Below, one piece after another: positions 7,023 through 60,047 of a DNA stretch of 64,000 nt. Positions within the stretch are counted from its first letter, which is position 1; each line of letters opens with the position of its first letter. The translations under genes were made by a program, and so were the position numbers. The stretch is from Aurantibacillus circumpalustris (GTDB taxonomy: Bacteria; Bacteroidota; Bacteroidia; B-17B0; Aurantibacillaceae): assembly GCF_029625215.1 (NCBI RefSeq), contig NZ_CP121197.1, forward strand, positions 4,278,001 through 4,342,000. Reading direction: 5' to 3'. Below the pieces are notes generated by a model that ran no database searches, was not told where the DNA came from, and was given only the letters and a program-made list of their open reading frames with translations.

Positions 7023-7301
7023 AGTTTATGGTTTTAAGTAAATGTAGTGTATTAGTCTATACTAGTCCTATTTTTTAACCTTTCGATTTAAGCCAATCAC
7101 CGAAATGCTCTAAATGATTTCTTGTTCTTTGAAAAATCAAATTACTCAGATCAAAAAACACACCTTCTTACTTCGGCCGGGGATACTTAATGCATAGATC
7201 AACATATATCCGAGCATTATAATAAGGTCTAAAAAACAGTATCTTAGAGTGCAAATAAAATTAAACCTTTGCAAAAAAGTTACGTCGAAAAAAATATAAA
7301 A

Positions 7302-8612
7302 ATGAAAAAAATAGTTTTACTCGCACTAATCAGTTTTACAAGTGCATTTCAAATATCAAAAGGCCAAAACCTCTATTTCCCGCCATTAAGCAGTGCTGCC
7401 AATTGGGAGACCATTTCTCCTACTTCGTTGGGCTGGTGTCAAAATAGAATTGATAGCTTATATACTTTTTTGCAACAGCAAGACACCAAAGGTTTTATAG
7501 TGCTAAAAGATGGCAAAATAGTTTTAGAAAAATACTTCGGAACATTTACAACTGATAGTTTATGGTATTGGGCATCAGCCGGAAAAACAATTACTTCCTT
7601 TTTAGTTGGTAAAGCTCAGGAAGAAAATTATTTGTCTATTAACGATTCCTCGTCAAAATACTTAGGAGCAGGCTGGACCAATTGCACATTAGCACAGGAG
7701 GGTAAAATAAAAATCAGAAATCAACTAACAATGACATCCGGCCTTGACGATGGTACCGCAGATAGTTATTGCACTCTCGACACTTGCTTAGATTATTTAG
7801 CGGATGCCGGAACTCGCTGGGCTTATCACAACGCACCTTATACACTTTTAGAAAGTGTTATAACTGCCGCAACCGGAACTTCAATAAACAATTACACTCA
7901 AAACAAATTAACACTAAAAACTGGCATTTCAGGAATTTGGGCGTTTAGTGGGTATAACAATGTTTTTTTTAGTAAAATCAGAAGTATGGCTCGTTTTGGT
8001 TTATTAATGCAAAATAATTGTATTTGGAATACGGATACCTTACTGTATGATGCAGCCTACATCAACCAAATGACAAATACTTCGCAAAATCTGAATCTTT
8101 CATACGGCTATTTGTGGTGGTTAAATGGAAAATCATCCTTCATGGCTCCATCCACACAATTTGTTTTTCCAGGATCATACGCTCCTGCTGCACCCAGTGA
8201 TATGTTTGCAGGACTTGGAAAAAACGGACAAATTGTTAGTGTCTCTAAAAGCGCAGGTTTAGTGGTAATTAGAATGGGTAATCAAGTAGGTAATACTGAA
8301 GTGACCACGCAATTATGCAACAGTATTTGGGAAAAACTAAATGCGGCGATCTGCAACCTAACTTACCTAAATGAAACTAGTTCTAATCAGAATAGCATTT
8401 CAATCTTTCCTAATCCAGCTAATTCAGTAATAAATGTTGCCTTGCCTTCCGATGAAAGTTTTCAGATTGAAATTCTAAATCCAATTGGCGAAACGATTTT
8501 CAAATTGGTAAATCAAAATAAAATTGACATCTCCAATTTCACAAACGGACTTTATCTTATCTCTGTCAAACAAGGGCAAAATATCTATTACAAAAAAATC
8601 ATCAAACGCTAG
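7302..8612 (+). CDS. T9SS-exported serine hydrolase of the beta-lactamase / PBP fold
   Basis: 436 aa from the ATG at 7302, which is immediately followed by a signal peptide (about 1-22). An in-frame TTG at 7269 is less likely because it would place residues before the signal. The domain at about 40-350 has class C beta-lactamase / penicillin-binding motifs: S92-x-x-K95 (WASAGKTITS), Y-x-N (YHNAP) and a K-x-G-like GLGKNGQ. The last 75 residues (ISIFPNPA onset, ending with GLYLISVKQG) are a T9SS type A sorting domain. The protein is probably a secreted or surface-bound esterase, peptidase or D-amino-peptidase; true beta-lactamase activity is not implied. It is monocistronic, ending at a hairpin near 8800-8836. 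Confidence 0.88.
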   Translation: MKKIVLLALISFTSAFQISKGQNLYFPPLSSAANWETISPTSLGWCQNRIDSLYTFLQQQDTKGFIVLKDGKIVLEKYFGTFTTDSLWYWASAGKTITSFLVGKAQEENYLSINDSSSKYLGAGWTNCTLAQEGKIKIRNQLTMTSGLDDGTADSYCTLDTCLDYLADAGTRWAYHNAPYTLLESVITAATGTSINNYTQNKLTLKTGISGIWAFSGYNNVFFSKIRSMARFGLLMQNNCIWNTDTLLYDAAYINQMTNTSQNLNLSYGYLWWLNGKSSFMAPSTQFVFPGSYAPAAPSDMFAGLGKNGQIVSVSKSAGLVVIRMGNQVGNTEVTTQLCNSIWEKLNAAICNLTYLNETSSNQNSISIFPNPANSVINVALPSDESFQIEILNPIGETIFKLVNQNKIDISNFTNGLYLISVKQGQNIYYKKIIKR

Positions 8613-45926: not shown

Positions 45927-46361
45927 ATGAAAAAAACAAAAAAAGCCCAACTAACACAAATTACTTTGTTCGTTTTAATCTTTCTTTTATTCGCCTGTCA
46001 CAAAAAAAACGGCTCACCTCTTCGAAATAATGAACCTTGCCCTTTTAAAAGCCAGGAATGTGACAAGGCTATTTTCACATTATACAATCGCACGCAAGAA
46101 ATCATTTATTTTGGTATTGGAACAAATATGTGGGAAGACTCACTACTGCCGGGTCAATACCACCGAGAGATATATGGACACGTAAAGGTTACTTATGATA
46201 AAAATTGTGAATTAGAAAAGGAAAGCTGGGCCACACATTATCTGAGTTCAAATTGGGGCGATTGGGCTTACAATATTGATCACTGCAATAAAAAATCGGC
46301 ATTTGAATATGAAGACTCCAGCAAAACCCGAATCTTACTCTATGATGTAACGGAAAATTGA
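45927..46361 (+). CDS. Small lipoprotein of unknown function
   Basis: 144 aa with a lipoprotein signal (hydrophobic about 10-23, lipobox FAC, Cys24, then HKKN). The mature region has four further cysteines (PCPFKSQEC, NCELEKE, HCNKKS) and many aromatic residues, suggesting a small disulphide-stabilised domain. No named family is recognised. It stands alone between the Mrr gene and a 260-nt gap. Confidence 0.65.
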   Translation: MKKTKKAQLTQITLFVLIFLLFACHKKNGSPLRNNEPCPFKSQECDKAIFTLYNRTQEIIYFGIGTNMWEDSLLPGQYHREIYGHVKVTYDKNCELEKESWATHYLSSNWGDWAYNIDHCNKKSAFEYEDSSKTRILLYDVTEN

Positions 46362-46621
46362 AATCATTACCGTTTCGATGAGTTGATAATATGCATTGTC
46401 AATAAATGGTCTCAATAATCCATGGTTATCAACACAAACAATCACTATCACTATTATGTAAAATAATAAATATTTATTGAAACAGATATACTTGCTTTCA
46501 TCCCCAGCATTTTGCTTTTTTGTTTTACCATGATAAAATATTTTAACTTCACGTCGATCATAGTGTCATGGAAGAATTGGAAACTGGTAAGCGACATCTT
46601 AATAACCGTTATTAAAACATA

Positions 46622-47779
46622 ATGAGACTCATTCTTTTTATAATAGTTATTTCTCAGTTCCTCTGCACTTCACTTTGGTTCGCTGGCAACTCTATAATTT
46701 CAGATTTAGCAAAAGATTTAAATCTTGATCAGAATTTTTTAGCACACCTAACAAGCGCCATTCAATTTGGATTTATTACAGGAACATTCGTCTTTGCCGT
46801 TTTCACTATTTCAGATCGTTTTTCACCGTCATTAGTGTTTTTCTGTAGCTCTATTCTGGCGGGCCTTTTTAATCTTGGTATTTGTATTAATGATATAGAC
46901 GAAAGCGAAATTCTTTTGTTCAGATTTTTAACTGGCTTTTTTCTTGCAGGAATTTATCCTGTTGGTATGAAAATAGTTTCTGATTATTATCAAACGGGTT
47001 TAGGAAAATCACTAGGGTTTTTGGTCAGCGCTTTGGTTTTAGGAACAGCCTTCCCTCATCTTTTAAAAAATTTCACGTTGGGCTTTCCCTGGAAGTACGT
47101 TTTATATGGTACTACAGGTTTATCCGTCATTGGCGGTCTGAATGTTTTATTATTTGTACCAAACGGACCTTACCGTAAACCCGCACAGAAAATAAAGTTA
47201 ACCGCATTTATAAAAGGTTTTACCAATAAAAATTTCCGCTCCATTTCGTTTGGATATTTTGGTCACATGTGGGAACTATACTCGTTTTGGACCTTTGTGC
47301 CAATCATGATTACATCCCGCAACAATTATTACACAACTACTAATCTGAATGTTTCTTTATTATCCTTTTTAATAATTGCGGCTGGTTCGGTAGCTTGCGT
47401 GTTCAGCGGAATGCTTTCACAGTACTTTGGAGCAAAAAAAATAGCTACGTTATCACTCGCGCTATCTTGTGGATGTTGTCTTGTTTCTCCATTTTTTCTA
47501 TTCTCCAGATCTTCAATTCTGTTTATCCTATTTTTGTTTATTTGGGGACTTGTAGTTATTGCTGACTCTCCTCTATTTTCAACTTTGGTTGCTCAAAATG
47601 CACCAGACGAATCAAAGGGAACTTCTCTTACAATAGTTAATTGCATTGGGTTTTCAATAACGATTGTCAGTATCCAATTCATAAGTTTAGTTTCCTCTAA
47701 AATAAACCCGCAACTTATATATATGCTTTTAGCAATTGGACCCATACTTGGCTTAGTAGCATTATTGAAGAAAAAGTAA
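46622..47779 (+). CDS. MFS transporter
   Basis: 385 aa with twelve predicted hydrophobic segments, the major facilitator superfamily layout. The segment FFLAGIYPVGMKIVSDYYQTGLGKSLGFLVSALVLG and the region after the central loop (FRSISFGYFGHMWELYSFWTFVPIMI) fit the cyanate/nitrate-type MFS branch (CynX-like), although the substrate is uncertain. The N-terminal half shows the expected short loop between TM2 and TM3. There is no adjacent regulator or enzyme to hint at the substrate. It is convergent with the response regulator gene. Confidence 0.85.
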   Translation: MRLILFIIVISQFLCTSLWFAGNSIISDLAKDLNLDQNFLAHLTSAIQFGFITGTFVFAVFTISDRFSPSLVFFCSSILAGLFNLGICINDIDESEILLFRFLTGFFLAGIYPVGMKIVSDYYQTGLGKSLGFLVSALVLGTAFPHLLKNFTLGFPWKYVLYGTTGLSVIGGLNVLLFVPNGPYRKPAQKIKLTAFIKGFTNKNFRSISFGYFGHMWELYSFWTFVPIMITSRNNYYTTTNLNVSLLSFLIIAAGSVACVFSGMLSQYFGAKKIATLSLALSCGCCLVSPFFLFSRSSILFILFLFIWGLVVIADSPLFSTLVAQNAPDESKGTSLTIVNCIGFSITIVSIQFISLVSSKINPQLIYMLLAIGPILGLVALLKKK

Positions 47780-47846
47780 AATAACACCTTGTTTGTTAAA
47801 ATAAATTGGATTTAAATTCCAAGTAACAAAGACATAAGGAAACCAT

Positions 47847-48473
47847 TTAATGAATGTACCCCAAACTAACTCCAGCCTTAATAAGGCCAGCTAGATTGGT
47901 TACATTTAATTTTTCGAATAAGTTTTTTCGATGCGATTCCACCGTACTCACCGAAATAAAAAGTTCCGCCGCAATTTCAGAAGTTTTCTTTTCTAGTGCA
48001 ATTAAAATAAGAATTTCGATTTCACGCTTACTTAATTCATTCGAATTTGTACTTGCGTTTAGTTTTTGTCGAATAAAATCATATTCGTCTGGTAAATACA
48101 AAGCTTCTTCGTAAACAGTTAAAACAGCCTTTTCCAAATCACGTAAGGTTTGATTCTTATTCACATATCCTTTAACACCAGCTTTGAAAAGAAGTTCTAC
48201 AAGCATTGGGCTATTTAAAGCAGTATAGGCAATAATTTTTTGTTGAGGGAATATTTTTAGAACATCCTTAAACGAATTAACACTTAAAGTACCCGGCATC
48301 ACAACATCCATAATTAAAACATCTGGTGACTGTTCAGTGAGTGTTTCAATAATTTTTTGTTTTTCTGTTACAATAAAAAGAACAATATACTTCCCGCCTT
48401 TTTTTAATTCCAAGGAAACGCCTTGCGCAACCGCTTCGTGATCATCTATAATACCTACTTTTATATTATGCAT
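47847..48473 (-). CDS. NarL/LuxR-type response regulator
   Basis: 208 aa from the ATG at 48471-48473. The receiver domain (1-125) has the acidic pair D10/D11 and phospho-acceptor D56 in LIMDVVMPG. The C-terminal LuxR helix-turn-helix (about 142-206) is complete (LSKREIEILILIALEKKTSEIA...STVESHRKNLFEKLNV). The start overlaps the end of the kinase gene by 8 bp (48466-48473), so the pair is translationally coupled. A longer frame from 48539 lies inside the kinase gene and is rejected. Confidence 0.93.
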   Translation of the reverse strand: MHNIKVGIIDDHEAVAQGVSLELKKGGKYIVLFIVTEKQKIIETLTEQSPDVLIMDVVMPGTLSVNSFKDVLKIFPQQKIIAYTALNSPMLVELLFKAGVKGYVNKNQTLRDLEKAVLTVYEEALYLPDEYDFIRQKLNASTNSNELSKREIEILILIALEKKTSEIAAELFISVSTVESHRKNLFEKLNVTNLAGLIKAGVSLGYIH

Positions 48474-50304
48474 ACTTCGGAAGTGTAAATATAAAAACAG
48501 TTCCAGAAGGATTATTCTTTTTAACGGAAATAGTTCCATTAAATTTGTTTATTAACTCAAAGGTAATATACAGTCCCAAACCAAATCCAGTTTCGTTATT
48601 GGTTCCTAACTTACTTTTTAAAGTGCCTGAAAATAGCTCATTTACCTTATCTTCTGTAATTCCAGTACCTGTATCACTCACAAACATTCCTCCTTCTGAA
48701 TTTAATCCAATTATCACTTCGCTTTTTTCGTAACTGAATTTTATAGCGTTTGTAGTAAGATTACGAATAATAATTCTCAATATATCTGATGGAATTTGGA
48801 ACACACTATTTTCTGGAAGTGTATTTCGTATACTAACTCCTTTTTTAGAAGCCATAAATTTTAATTCTTTTTCTATTTCCGTAGCAATATTCCAGGCATT
48901 GGCTGTACTATTCTTATTATGGCTTACGTTTAATTCTGTACGCGCCCAGTTTAATAAATTTTCGAGTATCTGATTCGATTGTGTTATTTGATGACGCACA
49001 TCGGCAGTATAACTATTTAAATCCTCCTGACTAATATTTTCCTTATCTAATAGATCCATCAACATTTGCAAGGTAATTAAAGGGCTTTTAAAATCATGCG
49101 CGATCACCGAAAATATTTTTTGGTTCAGTATATTTAGTCGCTCTATTCTGGCTTTTTGAATTTCCACTTCACGCTTTTGACGTCTTGTTCTGATATAAAT
49201 AAATGCCACAAAAAATAGACCCAACACTAAACACATGGCACCCGCAATTAAAAAGGCAATTCTTTTTTTGCTAGTTTCTTCTTTTCTCACTCCTTCTTCC
49301 ATTGACAATTTTTGCAAAGCAATCGTCTTTTCCTTCTCGCTTAACATTAAACGGCGTTCAATATCATTTACATTTTTTACTTTCTTAATCGTGAATAAAG
49401 AATCAGATAACTTTTTTAATCTGCTTTGAGATAGAAATGCATTTTTATAATTATTTATCGATTCGTAGCAGCCAATAATACCTTTAAGAGCATCCGATTC
49501 CTCAATAGGCAAATTGTTTTCTTTCGCCATCTCAATAGCAGTGCAGTAATAAGAAATAGCTTCTTGCGGCTTTTGTGTAAGAGCCAATAATGATGCTTGC
49601 TCAGTTATGGCCGTTATTTGCGCATCCAACATTTTATGCCGTTTCGAAATAATTACTGAGGAATCAAACTGAATTCTTGCGAGCTTATAATTCTTCTTAT
49701 GTAAATTAATCAAGCCTGCATTGAGATAATAATAAAACCACTGCATGCTATTTGGCTTTATATATTCTTTAGCTTCCGAAAGCACTTTTAACCCCTTTTC
49801 ATATTCACCAATATATGAATAATCGTTTGCCAGATTGGTCAAAGATGACATTAATCCTTGGGTATCACCAATTTCACGGTATAAATCACAAGCCTTTATT
49901 AGTAAAAAAATTCCTTCACCTTCCTTATCTATTTTGCTGAAAGCGGTAGACATTAAATCGTAACATTTTGCTTCGCGAGATTTTTTATTATTCTTTTGAA
50001 ATATAATAACAGCGTCTCTCAAACACTTAAGTGCGTGTTCAATGTTTCCTTTCAGTATCTCTGTTCTAGCAACAGAATACCAAGCTTCAGCCTTACACAG
50101 CTCTAAATTGTGTTTTGTAGCGTGCAATAAAACTTTATTGGTATACAAGAGGCTCAATTCTGGGTCGGTGTGGTAAACTTTATTAGCTTCTTTCAATAAA
50201 CTATCACAGTAGTGTGTTTTTTGAGTAAGAGTAATACCATTTTGAGAACAAATAACTCCGGGACAGAATAAATAAACCAAAAGAATTAGGTAAGAATACT
50301 TCAT
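48466..50304 (-). CDS. TPR-domain sensor histidine kinase
   Basis: 612 aa. A signal peptide (about 1-20) is followed by about seven tetratricopeptide repeats (about 35-325), outside the inner membrane. A coiled coil, one membrane helix (about 350-372) and a kinase core come next. The phospho-acceptor box is SVIAHDFKSPLITLQ (HisKA type), and the ATP-binding domain has N (IRNLTTNAIKFSYE), G1 (VSDTGTGI) and G2 (GFGLGLYI) boxes. It probably signals to the response regulator encoded by the overlapping gene. HisKA kinases more often partner OmpR-type regulators than NarL-type, so the pairing is unusual. A minus-7 element (50370) lies upstream. Confidence 0.9.
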   Translation of the reverse strand: MKYSYLILLVYLFCPGVICSQNGITLTQKTHYCDSLLKEANKVYHTDPELSLLYTNKVLLHATKHNLELCKAEAWYSVARTEILKGNIEHALKCLRDAVIIFQKNNKKSREAKCYDLMSTAFSKIDKEGEGIFLLIKACDLYREIGDTQGLMSSLTNLANDYSYIGEYEKGLKVLSEAKEYIKPNSMQWFYYYLNAGLINLHKKNYKLARIQFDSSVIISKRHKMLDAQITAITEQASLLALTQKPQEAISYYCTAIEMAKENNLPIEESDALKGIIGCYESINNYKNAFLSQSRLKKLSDSLFTIKKVKNVNDIERRLMLSEKEKTIALQKLSMEEGVRKEETSKKRIAFLIAGAMCLVLGLFFVAFIYIRTRRQKREVEIQKARIERLNILNQKIFSVIAHDFKSPLITLQMLMDLLDKENISQEDLNSYTADVRHQITQSNQILENLLNWARTELNVSHNKNSTANAWNIATEIEKELKFMASKKGVSIRNTLPENSVFQIPSDILRIIIRNLTTNAIKFSYEKSEVIIGLNSEGGMFVSDTGTGITEDKVNELFSGTLKSKLGTNNETGFGLGLYITFELINKFNGTISVKKNNPSGTVFIFTLPKYA

Positions 50305-50369
50305 TCGTTAAAACAATTTATACCTTTTGCTGCAATATAATGCACAAAGCTTAAGGTTTGAGTTCTCTG

Positions 50370-50377
50370 CAAATATA
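50370..50377 (-). promoter_or_regulatory. Minus-7 element of the TPR kinase/NarL operon
   Basis: Reads TATATTTG on the minus strand (exact TAnnTTTG) 65 nt upstream of the start at 50304. A CAA at 50401-50403 gives a minus-33 with a 23-nt spacer, longer than usual. Confidence 0.45.
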
Positions 50378-50422
50378 TACATTTCACGGGGCATCTGAAC
50401 CAAAAATCATGGTTTACCCTGA

Positions 50423-50453
50423 TTGATTAAAAAAGAGTAAAATGATACGTTTG
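50423..50453 (+). promoter_or_regulatory. Promoter of the Vps62-like gene
   Basis: TTG (50423-50425), a 20-nt spacer and TACGTTTG (50446-50453) form a perfect Bacteroidota promoter. The transcript should start near 50460, leaving a leader of about 75 nt before the ATG at 50535. Confidence 0.7.
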
Positions 50454-50534
50454 TATTAACCCTGTTATTTTTTTTGTTCCGGAAATTAAATCAAAGGATA
50501 AATAACACACCTACAAACCCTAGTACTACAAATT

Positions 50535-51560
50535 ATGAATGAGTTAAAAACAACAGAACGCACAATAACCAGACCTGCACCTAACCTAACGGAGTTAAAT
50601 GAACTAATTGCGAGATATGCACCAATCCTATATTTTGATCTTGAGGAAAAACACAAACCACTATCAGTTGAAAGTTATTTAAATAAAGTCTCTTTGGTTA
50701 ACGATTCTGAAAAAATTAAAATTCAAGCCAACCAAAAAAACTTACCAGTTGGACAAAAACATAGAGGCAGATATTATTTAGAGTTTAACGGAACGTCACC
50801 AAGCTCCGAAACTACTTTACAAACAACTAAGGTTTATGTTCATGCTAAATTACATTCATCTCTTTACACTGACTTACAATTCTGGTTTTTGTTTGAAGAA
50901 GACGGCACAGTTGAAACCTCTATTAAATGGATTATAGATACAATAACAGGTCACAGCGCCGATCCTGATTTGGGTCCATTGGGTCGTCAAATGGGTTGCT
51001 GGAAAAGAATTACTATAAGAATTGATAATGAGAAACGCGAAATAAAGAAATTATTTTTCTCGCAACCAGGAAATGGTATTTGGATAGATTCAGAAAACAT
51101 TGAAAAATTTAACAACAGAATTAACGTGTACCTCTCCAAAAACTCACATTTTTTTTATCCGAACGAAGGAACACACTACTCTGAAAAGTTAAGTCTACCG
51201 GTATATTCCAGCGTTCTAGAATTTTCTTTTAAAAACACAATCACAAAAGGCGATTCCTTTGATTGTTCAAGTTGTTATGAATTGATTTCTGCTGACTACC
51301 TTGGTGAAAACAAACCTTCAGAACCCTATTGGTTAAATTTTTGTTACCCTTGGGGAAAAGAAGACACTTCGTATTTTAATCATAAATCACTTAAAGAAAT
51401 TATTGCCAATGCTTTCGGATCCAAACTTGAATTTTTGCTTAGTAACTCAGTTACCAATGAACTTTTGGGCTACTTGCAAACTTTTTTCACAAAACAATTA
51501 CAAAATGGTTCAAACGGACCTAAAAATCATGATTGTTGGGGAGGTGACGAGCTTGACTAA
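50535..51560 (+). CDS. Vps62-like protein (DUF946/Vps62 fold)
   Basis: 341 aa, no signal peptide. The segment LNELIARYAPILYFDLEEKHKPLSVESYLNKVSL matches the opening of the Vps62 family (YAP-x-x-YF---E-x-x-P-S-S-V-x-x-Y). The middle portion LGRQMGCWKRITIRID ... IKKLFFSQPGNGIWI resembles its second conserved block, where a Gly-Asp-Trp-Glu-like motif is expected; here MGCWKR replaces it. Members occur in fungi and many bacteria with uncertain function. It has its own strong promoter and overlaps the LytTR regulator gene tail-to-tail by 4 bp. The family call is moderate. Confidence 0.6.
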   Translation: MNELKTTERTITRPAPNLTELNELIARYAPILYFDLEEKHKPLSVESYLNKVSLVNDSEKIKIQANQKNLPVGQKHRGRYYLEFNGTSPSSETTLQTTKVYVHAKLHSSLYTDLQFWFLFEEDGTVETSIKWIIDTITGHSADPDLGPLGRQMGCWKRITIRIDNEKREIKKLFFSQPGNGIWIDSENIEKFNNRINVYLSKNSHFFYPNEGTHYSEKLSLPVYSSVLEFSFKNTITKGDSFDCSSCYELISADYLGENKPSEPYWLNFCYPWGKEDTSYFNHKSLKEIIANAFGSKLEFLLSNSVTNELLGYLQTFFTKQLQNGSNGPKNHDCWGGDELD

Positions 51561-52321
51561 TTAAACCCATCATCACTCAGCTTTAAATGGCTTAGAAACT
51601 CATCCTTTTTATTTTTTGAAACTGGTATTCTCTTATTTCCTTGAAGTACCACGTAACCTACACCTTCCTTAACATAGCGCGTTACATAATTTATATTAAT
51701 TACAAAGGAATTATGAATCCGAATAAAATGTAAACCCTCCTTACACAAAATTGATTCATATTCTTTAAGTGATTTAGAGACTTCTAACACCATCATATTT
51801 GTTAATTGAATTTTAGCCCCATTTGAATTGGCTTCAACGTAAATAATCATTGATGGCGTTACGTACTCAATGCTATCTTTAGAAGGCAATGGGACTCTAA
51901 GATTATTAAATCCTACAATTTCTTTGAGCGTGCTCTGAATATCTGGATACATCAATTTTTCGTCTTTTCTTTTCTGAATTCTTTGAACGGCATTTAGCAA
52001 TTCTTCCGAATCGATAGGTTTTAACAGATAGTCTGTTGCCGACTTTTTTATTGCTGCCACTGCGTACTCCTGATGTGCGGTAGTAAAAATTAAATTGAAA
52101 TTTTTGTGTTCTAATTTTTCAAGAACTTCAAAACCATTTAGAGAGGGCATATTGATATCCAAAAAAACAATATCAGGCCGATAGTTATTTATTAATTCAA
52201 CTCCTTCCGCAGGATCTGTAGTTTGAGCAACAACTTTAATCTCTGGTACAAATTTTTTAATTAACAGTTCCAAACTACGTAAACCATTGTATTCATCATC
52301 TATTAATACTGCATGTAACAT
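51557..52321 (-). CDS. LytTR-type response regulator
   Basis: 254 aa. The receiver domain (1-122) has acidic residues D8/D9 and phospho-acceptor D55 in IVFLDINMPSLNGFEVLE, plus K103-type SATDYLLKPID. The C-terminal LytTR domain (about 150-250) has the family marks (FIRIHNSFVININYVTRYVKEG...RIPVSKNKKDEFLSHL). The gene starts 2 nt after the stop of the LamG-domain kinase gene, so the two are one operon. LytTR regulators bind direct repeats about 21 bp apart. The repeat spacing of the four TGTAA elements in the first 10 kb is of that size, so this is one candidate for their regulator. Confidence 0.94.
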   Translation of the reverse strand: MLHAVLIDDEYNGLRSLELLIKKFVPEIKVVAQTTDPAEGVELINNYRPDIVFLDINMPSLNGFEVLEKLEHKNFNLIFTTAHQEYAVAAIKKSATDYLLKPIDSEELLNAVQRIQKRKDEKLMYPDIQSTLKEIVGFNNLRVPLPSKDSIEYVTPSMIIYVEANSNGAKIQLTNMMVLEVSKSLKEYESILCKEGLHFIRIHNSFVININYVTRYVKEGVGYVVLQGNKRIPVSKNKKDEFLSHLKLSDDGFN

Positions 52322-52323
52322 GA

Positions 52324-53826
52324 TTAATTGAATTTTGGTATCACAATTTCTACTAAAGTGCCCTCGCTTTCTCCTGTAGAATTTTCCTTATCCGTTATTT
52401 TAAATGAGCAATTAATTCCAGTGGCTTTTTCGAGAATATCCAGACGCTGTTTAATAAATTCGATCGCCATCGATTTTTTCTTAAAAGGATCCTTTTGCTT
52501 AAAACTGTATTTTCTTCCAACTCCATTGTCATCAATCCGGCATAATAGTGTTTTTCCATCAATATCAGAAAGTGTAATTTTAAGAACGCGATTATCTTGT
52601 TTTGGAAGCAAACCATGCCAAATTGCATTTTCAACAAAAGGTTGAATTAACATAAAAGGTATTTGAACATTTTTTGGATCAGAAATAGTTGATTCAATAA
52701 TTACTTCAAACGATTTATCAAAACGTAATTTTTCAAGCTCGAGATAACTATTTAAAATTTCCATTTCTTCTTTTAATGAAATGGATTCAGAGATACTACT
52801 TTCAAGCAATTTTCTTAACAACTTTGAGAATTTAACCAAATAAGAATTTGCATTTAAAGCATCCTCTTCCAATATAAAACGTTGTAAAGTATTTAATGAA
52901 TTAAAAATAAAATGCGGGTTCATTTGCGTACGAATGGCTCTCGTTTCAAGCTCATTCATATGTGCATTGATTTTATTTTTTTCATTTTGCATTTCAAGAT
53001 CTCTTTTAAATTTTCGGACAATAATCCAAACAATAAAAATTATTAACAATACCAAGGCTAAAATCCAGGATAACCATTTTAGATAAATCGTTAACCTATC
53101 TGGATTAGATTCATTGAACAGTTTGTCTACTTCCTGTTGAGAAATAACACGGTCATAAATATTAATATCGTCAATTGTTCCACACAAATAGCGTTCATTT
53201 TTTTTATTAGCGGTATTCCCAATAATAACTGAATCACCATTTAAAAAAACGCTTCTAAATCTTTTTTGAAGTCTTGCTTCTAATTTATTATCCAAGTAAA
53301 GAGCAAGCCAATCATCATCGTAAGTCATAACAATATGATGCCATTTTCTTAAACTTAATACACCTCTTGAATTAAGTGTAATTTGGTTATTATGGTCCTT
53401 AGAGGTGGTGACGTTAATCTTATTTGTATTAAAATTTAAGCCGATAAAATACCCCTCATAAAAATCATCACCAGCATGACTTTTTGTAATGAGTATTGGA
53501 TTGTAATCCCAACCTTCAGTACCCTTTTGTACAATAAGTTCAACATTCACCCACAAAGAAATAGTTCCTTTCTTGGGTTTTAAAACACTATCTGTTCCAA
53601 GATTAATATAACTGCTATTATTTCCATGCAGATAAATTGCTGATTCCTTATTTCCAAATCTGTCTTCAACAAAAGAAATACCAAGCATCTTTGGTCGGGT
53701 TAATCTCGAGTGGGTATCGACTTTACCATTATTAAAATAATAGGAAGCCACTGGCTTGTTGCTTAATTGACTCTTTGCATAAACAGCAAGTAAAATAAAG
53801 AAAAGCAGTGTTCTATATTTGAGCAT
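52324..53826 (-). CDS. LytS-type sensor histidine kinase with an extracytoplasmic LamG domain
   Basis: 500 aa from the ATG at 53824-53826, followed by a signal peptide (MLKYRTLLFFILLAVYAKSQ). Residues about 25-235 are a laminin-G/concanavalin-like domain with the typical strands (SAIYLHGNNSSYINLG, GTISLWVNV, WHHIVMTYDDDWLALYLDNKL, GTIDDINIYDRVIS). One membrane helix (about 250-272) leads to a His_kinase domain containing QMNPHFIFNSLNTLQRFI, the LytS-type phospho-acceptor, and a HATPase_c domain (DDNGVGR). LamG domains bind carbohydrates or proteins, so the kinase probably senses a polymer at the cell surface. It is coupled to the LytTR regulator and divergent from a LamG-containing secreted protein. 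Confidence 0.92.
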   Translation of the reverse strand: MLKYRTLLFFILLAVYAKSQLSNKPVASYYFNNGKVDTHSRLTRPKMLGISFVEDRFGNKESAIYLHGNNSSYINLGTDSVLKPKKGTISLWVNVELIVQKGTEGWDYNPILITKSHAGDDFYEGYFIGLNFNTNKINVTTSKDHNNQITLNSRGVLSLRKWHHIVMTYDDDWLALYLDNKLEARLQKRFRSVFLNGDSVIIGNTANKKNERYLCGTIDDINIYDRVISQQEVDKLFNESNPDRLTIYLKWLSWILALVLLIIFIVWIIVRKFKRDLEMQNEKNKINAHMNELETRAIRTQMNPHFIFNSLNTLQRFILEEDALNANSYLVKFSKLLRKLLESSISESISLKEEMEILNSYLELEKLRFDKSFEVIIESTISDPKNVQIPFMLIQPFVENAIWHGLLPKQDNRVLKITLSDIDGKTLLCRIDDNGVGRKYSFKQKDPFKKKSMAIEFIKQRLDILEKATGINCSFKITDKENSTGESEGTLVEIVIPKFN

Positions 53827-53914
53827 CCTTAAATGTATATATAATTCTAAACAGTACAAAAATGGTCAAGAGTGCTATTAAAACAACTGTAAAAGCTTTT
53901 TCACTCAAATTCAT
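53813..53914 (-). CDS. Possible 33-aa single-pass membrane peptide overlapping the kinase start
   Basis: An ATG at 53912-53914 opens a 33-codon frame encoding MNLSEKAFTVVLIALL with a central hydrophobic helix (residues about 8-26), a polar N-terminus and a basic/aromatic C-terminal end (FRIIYTFKDAQI). The stop overlaps the first codons of the LamG kinase (start 53826) by 14 bp, which would couple translation. The hydrophobic pattern and coupling argue for a real gene; the short length allows a chance frame. Confidence 0.4.
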   Translation of the reverse strand: MNLSEKAFTVVLIALLTIFVLFRIIYTFKDAQI

Positions 53915-54268
53915 AAAACGGCCTCAGTATTTGAGCAATTTTATTTTATTAGTACAATTTTTGTAAGTACAGTTAGCAAGCAGAAATTTACCGCTTGTAA
54001 AAGGCAAAAGTTTTTTCGTTGATGACGGTTTTTTACTAAAGAAATTCCTAATTACCGTACATCTCTTTATCCATAATACTTAAAACATTGTTCGTTTTTA
54101 ATTTCATTTTTATTAAAGCTTTCCGTTTTATAAAATTTAAGGATCATAATTCTACATTAAAATAACTACCATTTATAAAGCAGTTTTTTATTTCCATCCC
54201 ACCATTCTTTTTTTCCTCCTGTGTTGGAAGTTTCTTTGAAGAAATATTAACCAACTTAAACTTTAATT
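53915..54268. other. Divergent intergenic region between the LamG kinase and the LamG/S74 protein
   Basis: 354 nt, AT-rich. No exact TAnnTTTG element faces either gene; the best match toward the kinase has one mismatch (53936-53943). I see no hairpin or repeat of note. Confidence 0.4.
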
Positions 54269-56347
54269 ATGAAAAAGAAACTATTGTTAATTGGACTGAT
54301 CGCTATGACCAGTCTAATGCTCGCTCAGGTCCCAACAACGGGTCTGATAGCAAAATGGGAGTTTACCGGAAATTTAAATGATGGAGTGGGATCCAACCAT
54401 GGTACGTGGTTGCCGGGTGGGGCTCCAACATACACTGTGGACAGATGCGGTACATCAGGAACAGCTCTTCATTTTGATGGAGCTACAAATTGTGTCAAAA
54501 TGATAGCAGGGGGGATTTCGGGTGCCGGAGCAAGATCTTTATCCTTCTGGATGAAAACTACAAATACGGCAGCGGGAGGAGGCTTCGGATTTGTGAAAGT
54601 TATGTTTAATGATGGCATATATTCTTCAAGCTCTACAGCTACGCGCTGGGAAATTGATCATAATTATTCTTGCCAGGGGGTTGGCGTTGATATCTCACAG
54701 CAATATATTACTAAGCCCAGCCCCTGCGTGAACGATGGTGTATGGCACCATATTGTTGTTACACAAGCTGCCAGCTCTGCCTTAAACACAGCAAAAATAT
54801 ATCTCGATGGCGCCCAGATGGTGAGCACTAACTGCTCCCCAACCTCCAATACTGCAATCAATGCAACCTTGATTCAGTTAATTACTATTGGTGCAATATA
54901 TAACGGTGCTTTACCTGGAGCTACGTTAACAAGATTTTTTTCAGGCGACCTGGATGATTTTTACTATTATTCTTCTGTATTATCGCCGAGTGAAGTATTG
55001 CAACTTTACAATGATAAATGTACGCCTGTGCCAGATCCTCTTTGTTCAGGAACCGGCACTGTAGATCCCCCAACATCGGAATGCTGTCTTGGAAATTTGT
55101 GCAGTAACACACAAAACCCTCTTGCAGGCAGTTATCAAATCCCAATGAACAACAATGATTTTTACTTCTCAGACGATGCAGACTTTACTGATAAAGTTAA
55201 CGTGGGACACAATTGCAGTGTTCCAGGAATAGGAAAACTTAATTCTGAAACAAGTAGATTTACAAACCCTGGAGCCGCAGGTGGTAATGGAGATCCTGAA
55301 AGTATTTCCATTTACGGAAATAATTTATTTAGTCAACCAGGTACTGGTGTAGGAGTAATGGGGAATGCGCTCAACCGTCAAGGCGGCACTTCAATTGGGG
55401 TTTGGGGAGATGGAATAGGAACTGGTGATAATATTGGTGGAAAGTTTTTTGCTGGCAGCTTCAAACCATCAACTAATACATATAACATTGGTGTTAGTAC
55501 AGTGGCCAAACCTTCTACAGGAAACACACCTCCTTATACCTACCTTTCTGTTTATCCCAATGGGGCAAATATTGGTATCTACGCAACAGGCGAACTTAAC
55601 AACACAGATCCCGACCATTCTGCAGCGGGACCCGACTGGGCTGCGTGGTTTGATGGTGACGTAAATGTAGTAGGTTCCTGCTGGTTAAATAGCACTACCT
55701 GGCAGTTTTCTGACAAAAGATTGAAAAAGGATATAAAACCACTTGAGAACATCAGCGAAAAAATTAAGAAATTAAACGGTTACACTTATAGCTTCAGAAC
55801 AGAAGAATTCAAACAAAGAGGATTTGACAACCAACAGCATATTGGATTTATAGCTCAGGAATTAAAAGAAGTTTTCCCAGAGCTGATCAAAGAAGATGCG
55901 AAAGGGTTTTACGCGGTGGATTATCAGGGAATGATCCCAGTTTTGTTACAGGCTGTAAAAGAACAACAAATACAAGCAGAGAAACAACAAAGGCAAATGG
56001 ATGAATTAAAGGAATTATTGCAAACTCTAATTGGTAGCCCAAGCAAAAAGACCACAACTTCTTTACCTGTGAGCTTAAGCGATAAAAATGTAATAGTTCT
56101 CAATCAGAATGTTCCAAATCCTTTTGCTGAAAGCACTGTCATTACTTATAACCTGCCTGCAGATTTTACAAAAGCACAGATCATTTTTACCACTAACGAC
56201 GGAATGGTGATTAAAACGATAAACATCACAGAAAAAGGTTCGGGTAGTTTAAGTGTATTTGCAAATGACTTAAGTCATGGAATGTACACATATACTCTTG
56301 TAATTGATGGTAAAACCATAGACTCTAAAAAGATGATAAAGGAATAA
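54269..56347 (+). CDS. Secreted LamG protein with S74 self-processing domain and T9SS type A tail
   Basis: 692 aa. The signal peptide (about 1-20) precedes a LamG domain (about 25-245: GLIAKWEFTGNLNDG, GTALHFDGATNCVKM, RSLSFWMKTT, WHHIVVTQAAS, FSGDLDDFYYYSSVLSPSEV). A Gly/Asn-rich trimer-like spacer (about 265-480) follows. At about 485-570 there is a peptidase S74 / intramolecular chaperone domain of phage tailspikes (SDKRLKKDIKPLENISEKI ... HIGFIAQELKEVFPELI ... GFYAVDYQGMIPVLLQAVKEQQ) with its candidate catalytic Ser/Lys pair in SDKRLKKD. A coiled coil, then a sorting tail (VPNPFAEST ... SHGMYTYTLVIDGKTI) end the protein. It should be exported, trimeric and surface-located. Confidence 0.88.
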   Translation: MKKKLLLIGLIAMTSLMLAQVPTTGLIAKWEFTGNLNDGVGSNHGTWLPGGAPTYTVDRCGTSGTALHFDGATNCVKMIAGGISGAGARSLSFWMKTTNTAAGGGFGFVKVMFNDGIYSSSSTATRWEIDHNYSCQGVGVDISQQYITKPSPCVNDGVWHHIVVTQAASSALNTAKIYLDGAQMVSTNCSPTSNTAINATLIQLITIGAIYNGALPGATLTRFFSGDLDDFYYYSSVLSPSEVLQLYNDKCTPVPDPLCSGTGTVDPPTSECCLGNLCSNTQNPLAGSYQIPMNNNDFYFSDDADFTDKVNVGHNCSVPGIGKLNSETSRFTNPGAAGGNGDPESISIYGNNLFSQPGTGVGVMGNALNRQGGTSIGVWGDGIGTGDNIGGKFFAGSFKPSTNTYNIGVSTVAKPSTGNTPPYTYLSVYPNGANIGIYATGELNNTDPDHSAAGPDWAAWFDGDVNVVGSCWLNSTTWQFSDKRLKKDIKPLENISEKIKKLNGYTYSFRTEEFKQRGFDNQQHIGFIAQELKEVFPELIKEDAKGFYAVDYQGMIPVLLQAVKEQQIQAEKQQRQMDELKELLQTLIGSPSKKTTTSLPVSLSDKNVIVLNQNVPNPFAESTVITYNLPADFTKAQIIFTTNDGMVIKTINITEKGSGSLSVFANDLSHGMYTYTLVIDGKTIDSKKMIKE

Positions 56348-56382
56348 AGGCTTTTTTTTAATTACTTATTAAAATAAAAAGG

Positions 56383-56411
56383 GGTTGGCCAGTTAGGTCA
56401 ACCTTTTTTTT
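56383..56411 (+). terminator. Rho-independent terminator of the LamG/S74 gene
   Basis: The stem GGTTGGCC / GGTCAACC (56383-56390 with 56396-56403, loop of 5, one G-T pair) is followed by eight T residues, 36 nt beyond the stop codon. Confidence 0.85.
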
Positions 56412-56469
56412 GTGCATGGATATTCGCACTTTTTTAAATACATTTACTTTCAACAACACATTTTATATT

Positions 56470-57426
56470 ATGAGAAGATTTCTAATAACATGTACTATTC
56501 TATTTAGTTTAAAAAGTTCATTTGCCCAAACTTTTCCTAGCAGCCAAGATGATGGCAAATATTACATTATTAATGGTTACAAATTATGGACAGTTAGTTT
56601 CGGTAAAGGCGACCCACTCTTTTTCATTGCAGGTGGCCCAGGAGGCTCACACTATGGCTTACGCAGCTTCGATTCTCTAAGTAAAACGAATACTTTGGTT
56701 TATTACGACGGACTTGGTCGTGGTAAATCAGATACGGCAAAAAATGTTTCTGAATACACTATAGCGCGCGATATCGAAGATTTAGAAGGCTTAAGAAAAG
56801 CAATGGGATTTGACAAAATAAATATTTTAGGGCATTCTTATGGCGGACTTGTTGCACAAGGATATGCTATTAAATATCCTGAACAAACAAAACACCTCAT
56901 CATAGCAAACTCTTTTCATAGTTTTATTATGTGGCAAGCAAACGATGATAATTGCAACCATGAAATAAAAACAAATTATCCTGAAGTGTGGGATGCATTA
57001 ATAAAAGCGAGAGAACAAGGTGCTATTTCTTCTGATCCAATTCATCAAGAAATTTATGGGAAAGTTCCTTATGGTTTTTTATATTCTTATAATCCTGACA
57101 ATTTTAAAAGCCGCGGAAGAAAACCCTATCCAAACTCTTTTAACTCAAGGTTGTATTATCAAATGGTTGGTAAAGACGGTGATTTTATTGTAGGAAGCGA
57201 TATCGGAAATTTTGATTTTAGGAAAGATTTAAAAAATTTAAAAATGCCAATTCTAGTTATTGGTGGTCGTTACGACCGCGTTGCCGTGCCTTCTATGATG
57301 ATTAAATACAAAGAATATTGTCCACAAGCTAAATATGTTATGTTTGAAAACAGCGGACATAATCCTCAAGTAGAAGAGCCAGCTAAAGAGTTTGAACTTA
57401 TTCGTGAATTTTTAAATGGAAAATAA
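56470..57426 (+). CDS. Exported alpha/beta hydrolase, proline iminopeptidase-like
   Basis: 318 aa from the ATG at 56470, directly followed by a signal peptide (MRRFLITCTILFSLKSSFAQ). The fold is alpha/beta hydrolase with the oxyanion loop AGGPGGSH (HGGPG-like), nucleophile S123 in GHSYGG, an acid in GGRYDRVAVP and the catalytic His in SGHNPQVEEP. The GGPGGSH loop and overall length are those of prolyl aminopeptidases (S33), which release N-terminal proline or hydrophobic residues from peptides. Export to the periplasm points to peptide scavenging. An in-frame upstream start at 56410 lies within the terminator of the previous gene and is rejected. Confidence 0.87.
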   Translation: MRRFLITCTILFSLKSSFAQTFPSSQDDGKYYIINGYKLWTVSFGKGDPLFFIAGGPGGSHYGLRSFDSLSKTNTLVYYDGLGRGKSDTAKNVSEYTIARDIEDLEGLRKAMGFDKINILGHSYGGLVAQGYAIKYPEQTKHLIIANSFHSFIMWQANDDNCNHEIKTNYPEVWDALIKAREQGAISSDPIHQEIYGKVPYGFLYSYNPDNFKSRGRKPYPNSFNSRLYYQMVGKDGDFIVGSDIGNFDFRKDLKNLKMPILVIGGRYDRVAVPSMMIKYKEYCPQAKYVMFENSGHNPQVEEPAKEFELIREFLNGK

Positions 57427-57436
57427 ATCTTAAGAA

Positions 57437-58720
57437 TTACAAACCGAAAAGTTGATGCTGTAGAATATAAACTGCTGCGCCGGCAAAATAACCTATTAGC
57501 GCTAAAACACTTATTTTTTTTAAGTACCAAAAGAAGCCTATCTTTTCAATACCCATTGCAGCTACACCTGCTGCTGAACCAATAATCAACCAGCTTCCAC
57601 CCGTTCCAGTAGCATAGGCTAAAAACTCCCAAAAGTAATGGTCCGTTGGATAATCGGTTAAACTATACATTCCTTGCACTGCGGCAACAAGAGGCACGTT
57701 ATCCACAATCCCCGAAAGTAAGCCAAGTGAAAGAACTATAATGTCGTCATTAGCAATTGTGTTTGTCATCCAAGTAGCTAGTGAGGTTAAGATACCAGCC
57801 GATTGCAAAGCTGCAATACTCACAAGAATACCGAAAAAGAAAAGAATACTTGGTGTATCAATTTTACGTAACGCATAAACAACTGATAAAATATGCTTAT
57901 CGACCTCATCTTTTTTTCCATGAATAATTTCGGTGATTATCCAAAGTACTCCTAGTCCAATTAAAATACCCATATAAGGTGGCAAATGTGTAAACGTTTT
58001 AAAAACGGGTACCAGAACTAACATCAAAACACCAGAAAAGAAAACAATCATTTGATGTTTCACTGAAAGCGCCTTGTGATTTTTCACCACATCTAAATTT
58101 GGACGCTCAACAGTTCCTTTAAGCTTAAAGGAAAGAAAAATCAATGGGGCAACCAAACAAACCAAACTTGGTGCTATTAATTTCATTACAATGTTACCTG
58201 CTGTTATTTGTCCGCTTATCCAAAGCATAGTTGTTGTAACATCACCAATTGGGGACCATACTCCTCCCGCATTTGCAGCTATAACAACAATACCACAAAA
58301 AAGTAAACGATCTTCTTCTTTCTTAATCAATTTTCTTAAGAGAGAAACAATTACAATGGTTGTGGTTAGATTATCTAATAATGCAGAAAGAAAAAAAGTA
58401 ATAAGTGCTACTATCCACAAAAGTTTTACCTTATTTAATTGGGTAATTCTTGTCGTTATTAAATCAAAACCATCATGGGCGTCAATCAATTCTACAATAG
58501 CCATTGCACCAAGTAGAAAAAACAAAATGCCTGATAGTTCACCTAAATTGTGCTGCAATTGTTCGTTTACAAGGTGTTTATCGTCTGTATACAAAATATA
58601 CACAGTCCAACAAAGCACTCCTGTAACAAGGGCAACAGCAGCTTTGTTCACTTTTAAGCTGTGCTCAAAAGCAATCGTTAAATAACCTATTACAAATATT
58701 GTAATTAGAAGCGCGATCAT
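57437..58720 (-). CDS. nhaD: NhaD-type Na+/H+ antiporter
   Basis: 427 aa with about twelve hydrophobic segments. Family marks are IAFEHSLKVNKAAVALVTGVLCWTVY at the N-terminus, a conserved LSALLDNLTTTIV with acidic and Asn residues in the membrane, VIAANAGGVWSPIGDVTTTMLWISG, and LSGIVDNVPLVAAVQGMY in the second half. NhaD exchanges external protons for internal Na+ (or Li+) and helps with alkaline or saline conditions. The gene stands alone, tail-to-tail with the hydrolase gene 10 nt away. Confidence 0.93.
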   Translation of the reverse strand: MIALLITIFVIGYLTIAFEHSLKVNKAAVALVTGVLCWTVYILYTDDKHLVNEQLQHNLGELSGILFFLLGAMAIVELIDAHDGFDLITTRITQLNKVKLLWIVALITFFLSALLDNLTTTIVIVSLLRKLIKKEEDRLLFCGIVVIAANAGGVWSPIGDVTTTMLWISGQITAGNIVMKLIAPSLVCLVAPLIFLSFKLKGTVERPNLDVVKNHKALSVKHQMIVFFSGVLMLVLVPVFKTFTHLPPYMGILIGLGVLWIITEIIHGKKDEVDKHILSVVYALRKIDTPSILFFFGILVSIAALQSAGILTSLATWMTNTIANDDIIVLSLGLLSGIVDNVPLVAAVQGMYSLTDYPTDHYFWEFLAYATGTGGSWLIIGSAAGVAAMGIEKIGFFWYLKKISVLALIGYFAGAAVYILQHQLFGL

Positions 58721-58764
58721 TTTTTTTAAGTGATTTTAATAAGACAGCAATTTAGCAATACTAT

Positions 58765-59031
58765 TTATATAATTCGATTGAGATAGAACATCAAGCTTTC
58801 GTAATATTTGTTATAATCTCTTAAATAGTCTGGTGTATTGTATTCCCTAGAAGGCGTATCGCAAAGCAGCTGAAAATTTTTGGTCGCCATGTCAAGATAA
58901 TCTTCTTCCATTCCTTCCAAAAAAAGCTTTTTATTGTTTTGTAACAAGTTTAATACTCTTAGAGAAGATCGGTGATTCGCCTCATTCCTTAATCCTTTAA
59001 TTTCATCAATCAATTGTTCCAATCTAGCCAT
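58765..59031 (-). CDS. Small helical protein of unknown function, possibly leaderless
   Basis: 88 aa from the ATG at 59029-59031 (MARLEQLIDEIKGLRNE). It is almost entirely helical, charged and cytoplasmic, with a mid-region EEDYLDMATKNFQLLCD. I do not recognise a family. An exact minus-7 element (TATCTTTG, 59036-59043) ends only 4 nt before this ATG, so transcription would start at or next to the start codon. An alternative ATG at 59046 is inside the promoter element and is unlikely. Confidence 0.6.
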   Translation of the reverse strand: MARLEQLIDEIKGLRNEANHRSSLRVLNLLQNNKKLFLEGMEEDYLDMATKNFQLLCDTPSREYNTPDYLRDYNKYYESLMFYLNRII

Positions 59032-59035
59032 GAAC

Positions 59036-59068
59036 CAAAGATACACAGCGAAATTAAATAGTAGACAA
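59036..59068 (-). promoter_or_regulatory. Promoter of the 88-aa gene
   Basis: On the minus strand TTG (59068-59066), a 22-nt spacer and TATCTTTG (59043-59036). Its position, 4 nt before the ATG at 59031, predicts a leaderless or nearly leaderless mRNA. Confidence 0.5.
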
Positions 59069-59112
59069 TTTAATTTTCTAATAAATAAAAAGATAAATGA
59101 AATGGGCCGAAA

Positions 59113-59844
59113 CTAAAGAATAACTACAGCCGCTTGATTACCATTCCAAACTACAGGACTAGAGGTATGCGCTATCCAAGTATATTTTATTTCGGCAGAC
59201 TGAACAAACTCCTGAAATGCTTTGAATTCATAATTTTCGAAATACTGATAATTATAAATTTCATCGAATAAAATAATGGTTCCTTTTACAAGTTTACCTC
59301 CTGCATGCAAGGTTTTTAATACAAACAAAGTAGATGCGTACAAATCACAATCAATGTGCACAAAGGCACAGGGTTGGTTATTCCTTGCTAAAAAATCAGG
59401 TAACGTTTCCTGAAAATAGCCTCGCACCAACCTTACATTTTTACTCTTTAATGGGGGAATCGTGCCGCTTAAATTAGAATGCCCTTTTAAATATGTAAGG
59501 GTATCACTCATTTTCCAGTCCTCTGGAAGTCCTTCAAAACTATCAAATCCAATAACGGTTCTGCCGTCGTTGTTCTCAGAAATAAAATCAACTGTAGTTC
59601 CCTTTCCCACTCCAAACTCCAACCACATACCATTTAAAGTTACTTGCGACATACAAAAACGCAGGTAATCCCAATAAGAATGGGTAATATCCATAAGTTC
59701 TGGTTGACTAATGTGTCTATAACGAGAGACAAGACAGCGTTCGCATTTACAACCATCTAAAGAATCATTAAACCCTTCAGTAAATTTCTTACTGGATTTA
59801 ATTTCTTTTAGAATTTCTAATGTATTTTGCAAAGTATCTTCCAT
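59113..59844 (-). CDS. Class I SAM-dependent methyltransferase, TylF/MycF type
   Basis: 243 aa. The Rossmann-type SAM site is WLEFGVGKGTTVDFIS followed by an acidic residue in VIGFDSFEGLPEDW. The metal-binding acidic pair typical of TylF-like O-methyltransferases is seen in FVHIDCDLYASTLFVL and GTIILFDEIYNY. A Cys-x-Cys-x-x-Cys cluster (CKCERC) near residue 33 may bind metal, which is an unusual addition. The family methylates sugar or macrolide hydroxyls; here a glycan or lipid substrate is likely, but no polysaccharide genes are adjacent. Confidence 0.85.
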   Translation of the reverse strand: MEDTLQNTLEILKEIKSSKKFTEGFNDSLDGCKCERCLVSRYRHISQPELMDITHSYWDYLRFCMSQVTLNGMWLEFGVGKGTTVDFISENNDGRTVIGFDSFEGLPEDWKMSDTLTYLKGHSNLSGTIPPLKSKNVRLVRGYFQETLPDFLARNNQPCAFVHIDCDLYASTLFVLKTLHAGGKLVKGTIILFDEIYNYQYFENYEFKAFQEFVQSAEIKYTWIAHTSSPVVWNGNQAAVVIL

Positions 59845-60047
59845 ACCAAAGGCTAAGATATTGTATATACCAACCTTTTAAGGGACTTGACTAATTTATA
59901 ATTAACAAAGGGATTTTAATAAGAAGCTTTAAAGTAATTTAATCTTCTAGAATTTATAGAAAAACTAATGGGCTTAGATAAAAAGCAGTATTACAAGGCA
60001 ATCGGTAGAATAAACAATATAATTCTTAGCATAAATTATTAAAATAA

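Follow-up and report, generated by a model that had tools for sequence, protein, structure and literature searches.

A predicted LytS/LytTR-type circuit linking a LamG sensor kinase to a divergent gene for an exported surface protein in Aurantibacillus circumpalustris

A 64,000 nucleotide (nt) stretch of the Aurantibacillus circumpalustris genome (contig NZ_CP121197.1, positions 4,278,001 to 4,342,000; below, the window, in which coordinates are given unless a locus is named) contains a LytS-type histidine kinase with a LamG domain and its LytTR regulator, divergent from a gene for a secreted protein which also carries LamG. This raises the question of whether the three genes form a regulatory unit, and whether the common domain means that kinase and product recognise one another or a common polymer, as proposed by an earlier reading of this DNA (the sequence-only reading). 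Comparison with relatives suggests that the locus probably encodes a dedicated two-component circuit of the LytS/LytTR type with the divergent gene as its main target, and shows that a domain common to sensor and product can mislead, as both appear to have been exchanged independently around a conserved regulatory core. The features concerned are:

51557–52321, minus strand: regulator with REC and LytTR DNA-binding domains
52324–53826, minus strand: LamG-LytS-type sensor histidine kinase with signal peptide, predicted periplasmic LamG domain, one transmembrane segment and His_kinase domain
54156–54180, plus strand: predicted operator of the secreted gene, ATTAAAATAACTACCATTTATAAAG, with its conserved core starting 101 nt before the ATG at 54269
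54269–56347, plus strand: secreted modular protein with signal peptide, LamG, peptidase S74 (intramolecular chaperone) and a tail of type IX secretion system (T9SS) type

The kinase, its regulator and the secreted protein

All three genes were located where the sequence-only reading had placed them, and their domains were recognised by Pfam, with LamG (Laminin_G_3, PF13385, 80.4 bits) and His_kinase (PF06580, 78.8 bits) in the kinase, Response_reg (78.8 bits) and LytTR (51.8 bits) in the regulator, and LamG (50.4 bits) and Peptidase_S74 (68.5 bits, gathering score 22) in the product. The kinase has the conserved histidine of its family and the boxes NPHFIFN at residue 303, VENAI at 398 and DDNGVG at 432, with the N and G boxes assigned by eye and a separate HATPase_c match absent from the Pfam results. 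Its single transmembrane segment lies near residues 244–277, and the LamG sensor domain is predicted to be periplasmic and not on the surface, which makes the earlier term 'surface-sensing' topologically doubtful. The adjacent regulator gene is separated from the kinase gene by 2 nt, and its phospho-acceptor context is FLDI (residues 53–56). The ATG at 53826 is the likely start of the kinase, rather than the upstream TTG at 53859, judging by the signal peptide; the intergenic region is 442 nt long from this ATG and 409 nt from the TTG, instead of the 354 nt given previously. Two further full-length LamG kinases are encoded in the same genome, with 43% and 36% identity to the window kinase, each adjoining a LytTR regulator.

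Self-cleavage by S74 domains uses a Ser-Lys pair in the pattern SDxxxK. Ser481 and Lys486 of the product, in SDKRLK, fit this pattern, which would put the self-processing site just before Ser481. The S74 domain aligns to a long tail fibre distal subunit (6f45, E 2.8e-9), while its matches to 7dc3 and 3gud are weak (E 0.02–0.03). The tail is homologous to those of kinase-neighbour genes in relatives, and the genome has a PorV gene.

Neighbouring genes of LamG kinases in the family

A search of 87 genomes of the family with the window kinase gave matches at E≤1e-50 in 42 genomes, some covering the kinase domain only. We fetched 52 regions and two loci from the A. circumpalustris genome, which together with the window yielded 54 genes having both LamG and kinase domains, in 52 loci (individual loci are given by L numbers). 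Open reading frames (ORFs) came from a simple greedy script and domains from purpose-built hidden Markov models (HMMs), with Pfam checks on selected neighbours; the genes with fibre-like tails had no Pfam family in those tested. The controls were 32 LytS-type kinases without LamG, 20 from relatives and 12 from the same genome as the window.

A LamG gene directly adjoins the kinase-regulator block in 13/54 LamG kinases, at the 5′ side of the kinase in eight and past the regulator in five, compared with 1/32 controls (Fisher test, p 0.009). Direct neighbours also included an S74 gene in five cases and a gene with another fibre-like tail in seven (one and six, respectively, in the controls), and 36/54 LamG kinases have any LamG, S74, fibre-tail or T9SS-tail neighbour. 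As 26 genomes contained no more than 281 LamG domains, LamG genes make up 0.33% of genes as an upper bound, so that 0.34 LamG neighbours would be expected in 103 slots, compared to the 13 seen (approximately 40-fold excess, binomial P ~4e-17). These P values are indicative only and overstate independence, because the loci share ancestry. The linkage noted by the sequence-only reading thus recurs in relatives and is conserved in kind, with the partner type varying.

A third clade of LamG-kinase paralogs (L024:6473-8758 in the same genome, L100 and L102) adjoins T9SS genes, with PorV named in 3/3 loci and PorU in 2/2 tested.

In the samples searched, full-length LamG-LytS kinases were listed solely from the family of the window, where they are common. 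All full-length matches listed among 392 genomes of the phylum (three candidates scored per genome shown) were from the window's own family, as were those listed among 197 genomes of the class (at most seven scored), with the matches from other families mainly covering the kinase part. The order-level search returned this family alone, and a scan of genome contigs with the kinase gave only five distant kinase-domain relatives (31–39% identity) in Chitinophaga and Dyadobacter. The earlier statement that LamG-fused histidine kinases are uncommon therefore holds in these samples, but not within the family.

A conserved site in the partner promoters

The promoters of the partner genes have a common bipartite site, CTCAATAAA-N4-ACCASTTATWAAG, often located 85–105 nt before the start codon, which was first spotted by eye. 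Allowing at most one mismatch, ACCASTTATWA was present in 22/47 partner promoters (300 nt), compared to 9/231 other promoters of the same loci (250 nt) and 0.9/47 shuffled promoters (Fisher test, p 5e-13), although these counts are biased since the site was discovered in the same promoters. The longer ACCASTTATWAAG was found in 14/47 partner, 2/231 other and 0.05/47 shuffled promoters, and the two other promoters are those of a T9SS-tail gene in L061 and a fibre-tail gene in L118, both near kinases. The upstream half, which was not used for selection, is nevertheless conserved (C at −13, C at −11 and AAA at −7 to −5).

Less biased checks were provided by scans of the A. circumpalustris genome and of the 87 genomes, and by reading of the unlinked sites. 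The pattern ATTAAAANNNNTACCAYTTATWAAG has one perfect match in the A. circumpalustris genome, at 54156–54180 of the window, which is also the sole match within two mismatches; the other nine matches each have three mismatches, and the reversed control gave 13 hits. A related pattern with at most one mismatch identified 38 sites in 15 of the 87 genomes, versus none in all 87 for the reversed pattern. Thirty of these sites were fetched as loci (29 readable, as L190 stops at a contig end), and 16/30, including L190, are located away from the kinase loci used for motif discovery. For 9/16 of these unlinked sites, an ORF with a signal-peptide-like start (judged by eye) was found 63–119 nt downstream; at L175 and L179 this ORF encodes LamG plus a T9SS tail. 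Signal-peptide-like ORFs are farther off at L182 and L183, a T9SS-tail ORF lies at 345 nt from L197, and no convincing target was seen at L178, L184 and L194.

The site also follows the product gene and the kinase clade. In loci with the product gene downstream of the regulator, this is also where the site is found (L058, L060, L061, L071, L108-L110, L113, L115, L116 and L118), while L062 and L063 have it in both the kinase and the product promoter, and L057 in the kinase promoter. Three kinase clades have it in 12/14, 14/16 and 4/5 loci (30/35), versus 2/10, 2/3, 0/3 and 2/10 (6/26) in the others. Ten promoters from clades poor in this site, a set picked by clade after reading of the sequences, showed direct repeats spaced by 21 bp in six cases. 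This is the spacing of LytTR regulator sites as described in an excerpt of PMC4847170, with two repeats of 9–11 nt which are 11–13 nt apart. Another motif, seen by eye in a fourth clade (L095, L098 and L099), was dropped, as a pattern search gave one hit each in L093 and L095, two in L133 and none in L098 and L099.

The Rfam scan of window positions 46000–60000 gave nothing convincing, and the DUF805b RNA leader (RF02914) was not found in this region. Such a leader is present just upstream of partner genes at L056:9280-9314 and L063:6621-6654 (50.4 and 41.8 bits, above the gathering score), with weaker matches below the gathering score at L062:8751-8783 and L023:7285-7319, and a leader similar to RF02914 by pattern precedes an S74 gene in L083 and a T9SS-tail gene in L132.

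Exchange of sensors and products

In a tree of kinase domains (63 rows), the window kinase was placed within a clade of 14 (support 99/99), 12 of which have a LamG, S74 or fibre-tail neighbour. Five members of this clade lack LamG, and both of the two tested carry Reg_prop and Y_Y_Y instead. One propeller sensor (L108) is located between a LamG neighbour and a fibre-tail neighbour. Products vary likewise in a clade linked to hemC (a gene identified by eye from its sequence), where the divergent gene encodes a LamG protein in L076 and L077 and a CHU_C adhesin in L075 and L083. The same clade includes L023 from the A. circumpalustris genome, where a decayed LamG-T9SS gene (approximately 7330–7930) is divergent from the second LamG kinase and two copies of the control site are present, at 7082 and 7181. 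The window product itself combines a LamG resembling those of L068 and L079 with an S74-tail part resembling L056 and L072. The wiring thus appears to be kept across the family, while the sensor (LamG or Reg_prop/Y_Y_Y propeller) and the product (LamG, S74 fibre, other fibre-like tail or CHU_C adhesin) are exchanged.

A probable dedicated circuit for an exported surface protein

The dedicated circuit is well supported, because the adjacency recurs and the site is conserved, including in the scan with 38 sites versus none for the reversed pattern; both support the proposal of the sequence-only reading that the three genes act as a regulatory unit. The periplasmic LamG of the kinase may bind a ligand common to all kinases of the family, and the kinase would, as expected for these families, phosphorylate the adjacent LytTR regulator. 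The regulator would then bind the predicted site at 54156–54180 and control the gene at 54269, for which comparative support is strong, and activation is probable because of the position of the site. Sec and the type IX system may subsequently export the product, which would be displayed as a fibre or adhesin that carries LamG and is processed by S74. The circuit represents a testable unit of regulator, operator and target for surface proteins which a Bacteroidota lineage exports.

Several observations weigh against this circuit, next to the bias in the promoter counts. Unlike classic LytTR sites, the main site does not form a clean direct repeat of 21 bp, and no neighbour of the types above was found with the purpose-built HMMs for 18/54 LamG kinases, some of which are at contig ends. 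The type A tail of the product (TIGR04183) scored 22.2 bits, just below the curated cut-off of 23. The background of T9SS-type tails in non-adjacent genes is high (67/620), so that strong evidence comes only from LamG, S74 and fibre-tail genes and from the site.

What does the LamG sensor read?

In a LamG tree, the 54 kinase LamGs formed one clade, together with two sequences from fragments of such genes (support 96 in the Shimodaira-Hasegawa-like approximate likelihood ratio test, SH-aLRT). Six residues (K83, D121, K188, D198, K209 and N210) are conserved in 87–100% of the kinase LamGs, compared to 4–24% of the other LamGs. This conservation suggests that all these sensors have a signal or a structural role in common, and a ligand common to them is suggested because the polar core is conserved whatever the partner. 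A fold prediction for the window kinase LamG alone was unusable (mean predicted local distance difference test score, pLDDT, 35.6).

One possible signal, which we put forward tentatively, is export itself, with the periplasmic sensor monitoring the T9SS pathway, cargo in transit or a linked envelope glycan, and tuning cargo supply. This is consistent with the predicted topology, the sensor core conserved independently of product type and the paralog clade next to porV and porU. It also has a precedent in Porphyromonas gingivalis, where PorA, a C-terminal domain (CTD) protein, is placed upstream of the kinase PorY in an excerpt of PMC7712824. However, this reading supposes contact between sensor and T9SS or cargo, the porUV-linked clade has the site in 0/3 loci, and beta-propellers can replace LamG as sensor. 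If the LamG sensors do read such a signal in the periplasm, export or the envelope, and not the outside surface, is what the circuit would report on. A wider and equally tentative model joins this to the dedicated circuit, with every exported fibre or adhesin of the family under a LytS/LytTR pair and an operator of its own, in a repertoire of modules of one sensor and one surface protein whose sensors and products are shuffled by recombination, and the LamG sensors reading a shared envelope or T9SS-related periplasmic signal.

It is unlikely that kinase and product LamG recognise the same polymer, with the binder made when the polymer is present, although LamG products are commoner next to LamG kinases than next to other LytS-type kinases, and the second LamG kinase of the genome also faces a (decayed) LamG-T9SS gene. 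The two LamGs of the window are distant (20 identities in 85 aligned columns, score 48), and the kinase LamG scored higher with 10/11 non-cognate partner LamGs than with its own (permutation p 0.075 for cognate pairing, n=12 pairs). The product lacks the six kinase-specific residues. The phylogenetic comparison did not favour the earlier proposal either, as partner LamGs scatter in several groups among unlinked LamGs (in a quick tree with several long branches), separate from the kinase clade. In addition, many LamG kinases have products without LamG, and propellers are swapped in for the sensor. We therefore rejected the shared LamG as a sign of a shared ligand, and it does not support mutual recognition either.

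That the locus consists of ordinary neighbours is very improbable, for while the genome has 29 LamG domains, T9SS-type tails are frequent near these loci and the site also precedes unlinked genes, the LamG adjacency is far above expectation and a general surface-protein regulator would not give a site that tracks particular kinase clades and is unique in the genome.

Comparison with known systems

While the LytS/LytTR core of the circuit is ordinary, its sensor, its target and its modular shuffling are unusual. LytS proper has a multi-transmembrane 5TMR_LYT sensor. The window kinase differs from it, as Pfam gives LamG and His_kinase alone, with one transmembrane segment. With LytS/LytTR-type systems such as YpdA/YpdB, BtsS/BtsR and LytS/LytR it shares the PF06580 kinase beside a REC-LytTR regulator, and LytTR-type spaced repeats are found in one clade related to that of the window; the periplasmic LamG sensor and the exported modular surface protein as target set it apart. 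Several kinase domains of Reg_prop/Y_Y_Y LytS-type kinases of Bacteroidota are 47–56% identical to that of the window, and some of these kinases belong to its clade, where they share the control site and the kinds of product but have a beta-propeller replacing LamG. S74 domains are also found in phage tail fibres and MYRF, while here the domain is part of an exported protein of a bacterium, together with LamG and a T9SS-type tail.

The PorX/PorY-SigP system of P. gingivalis, with PorA, is similar in being a two-component system tied to T9SS and a lectin-like CTD protein (excerpt of PMC7712824). In the same source PorX is a PglZ-domain regulator acting via a sigma factor, whereas the window regulator is of the LytTR type with a site at one target gene, and scored 47.8 against the NF052313 PorX cut-off of 300, which sets it outside PorXY-SigP. 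The likeness drawn here is not one of sensor homology, and the regulators are of another kind. None of the open-licence PubMed Central papers listed in searches was, by title and abstract start, about histidine kinases with LamG or about the control of individual T9SS cargo genes by LytTR regulators; the excerpt of PMC10434189 lists a LamG domain and a histidine kinase as separate genes.

Further observations on gene arrangement

At L079:6270-8531 and L087:6289-8462, regulator and kinase are arranged tail to tail (convergent), and are not in the same operon. In the window, a gene for a Vps62-like protein (PF06101, 145 bits; 50535–51560) is convergent with the regulator gene, with a 4 nt overlap. 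Finally, two very large ORFs (3097 and 4626 amino acids) with many LamG repeats were detected at G000:C1:3263765-3284373.

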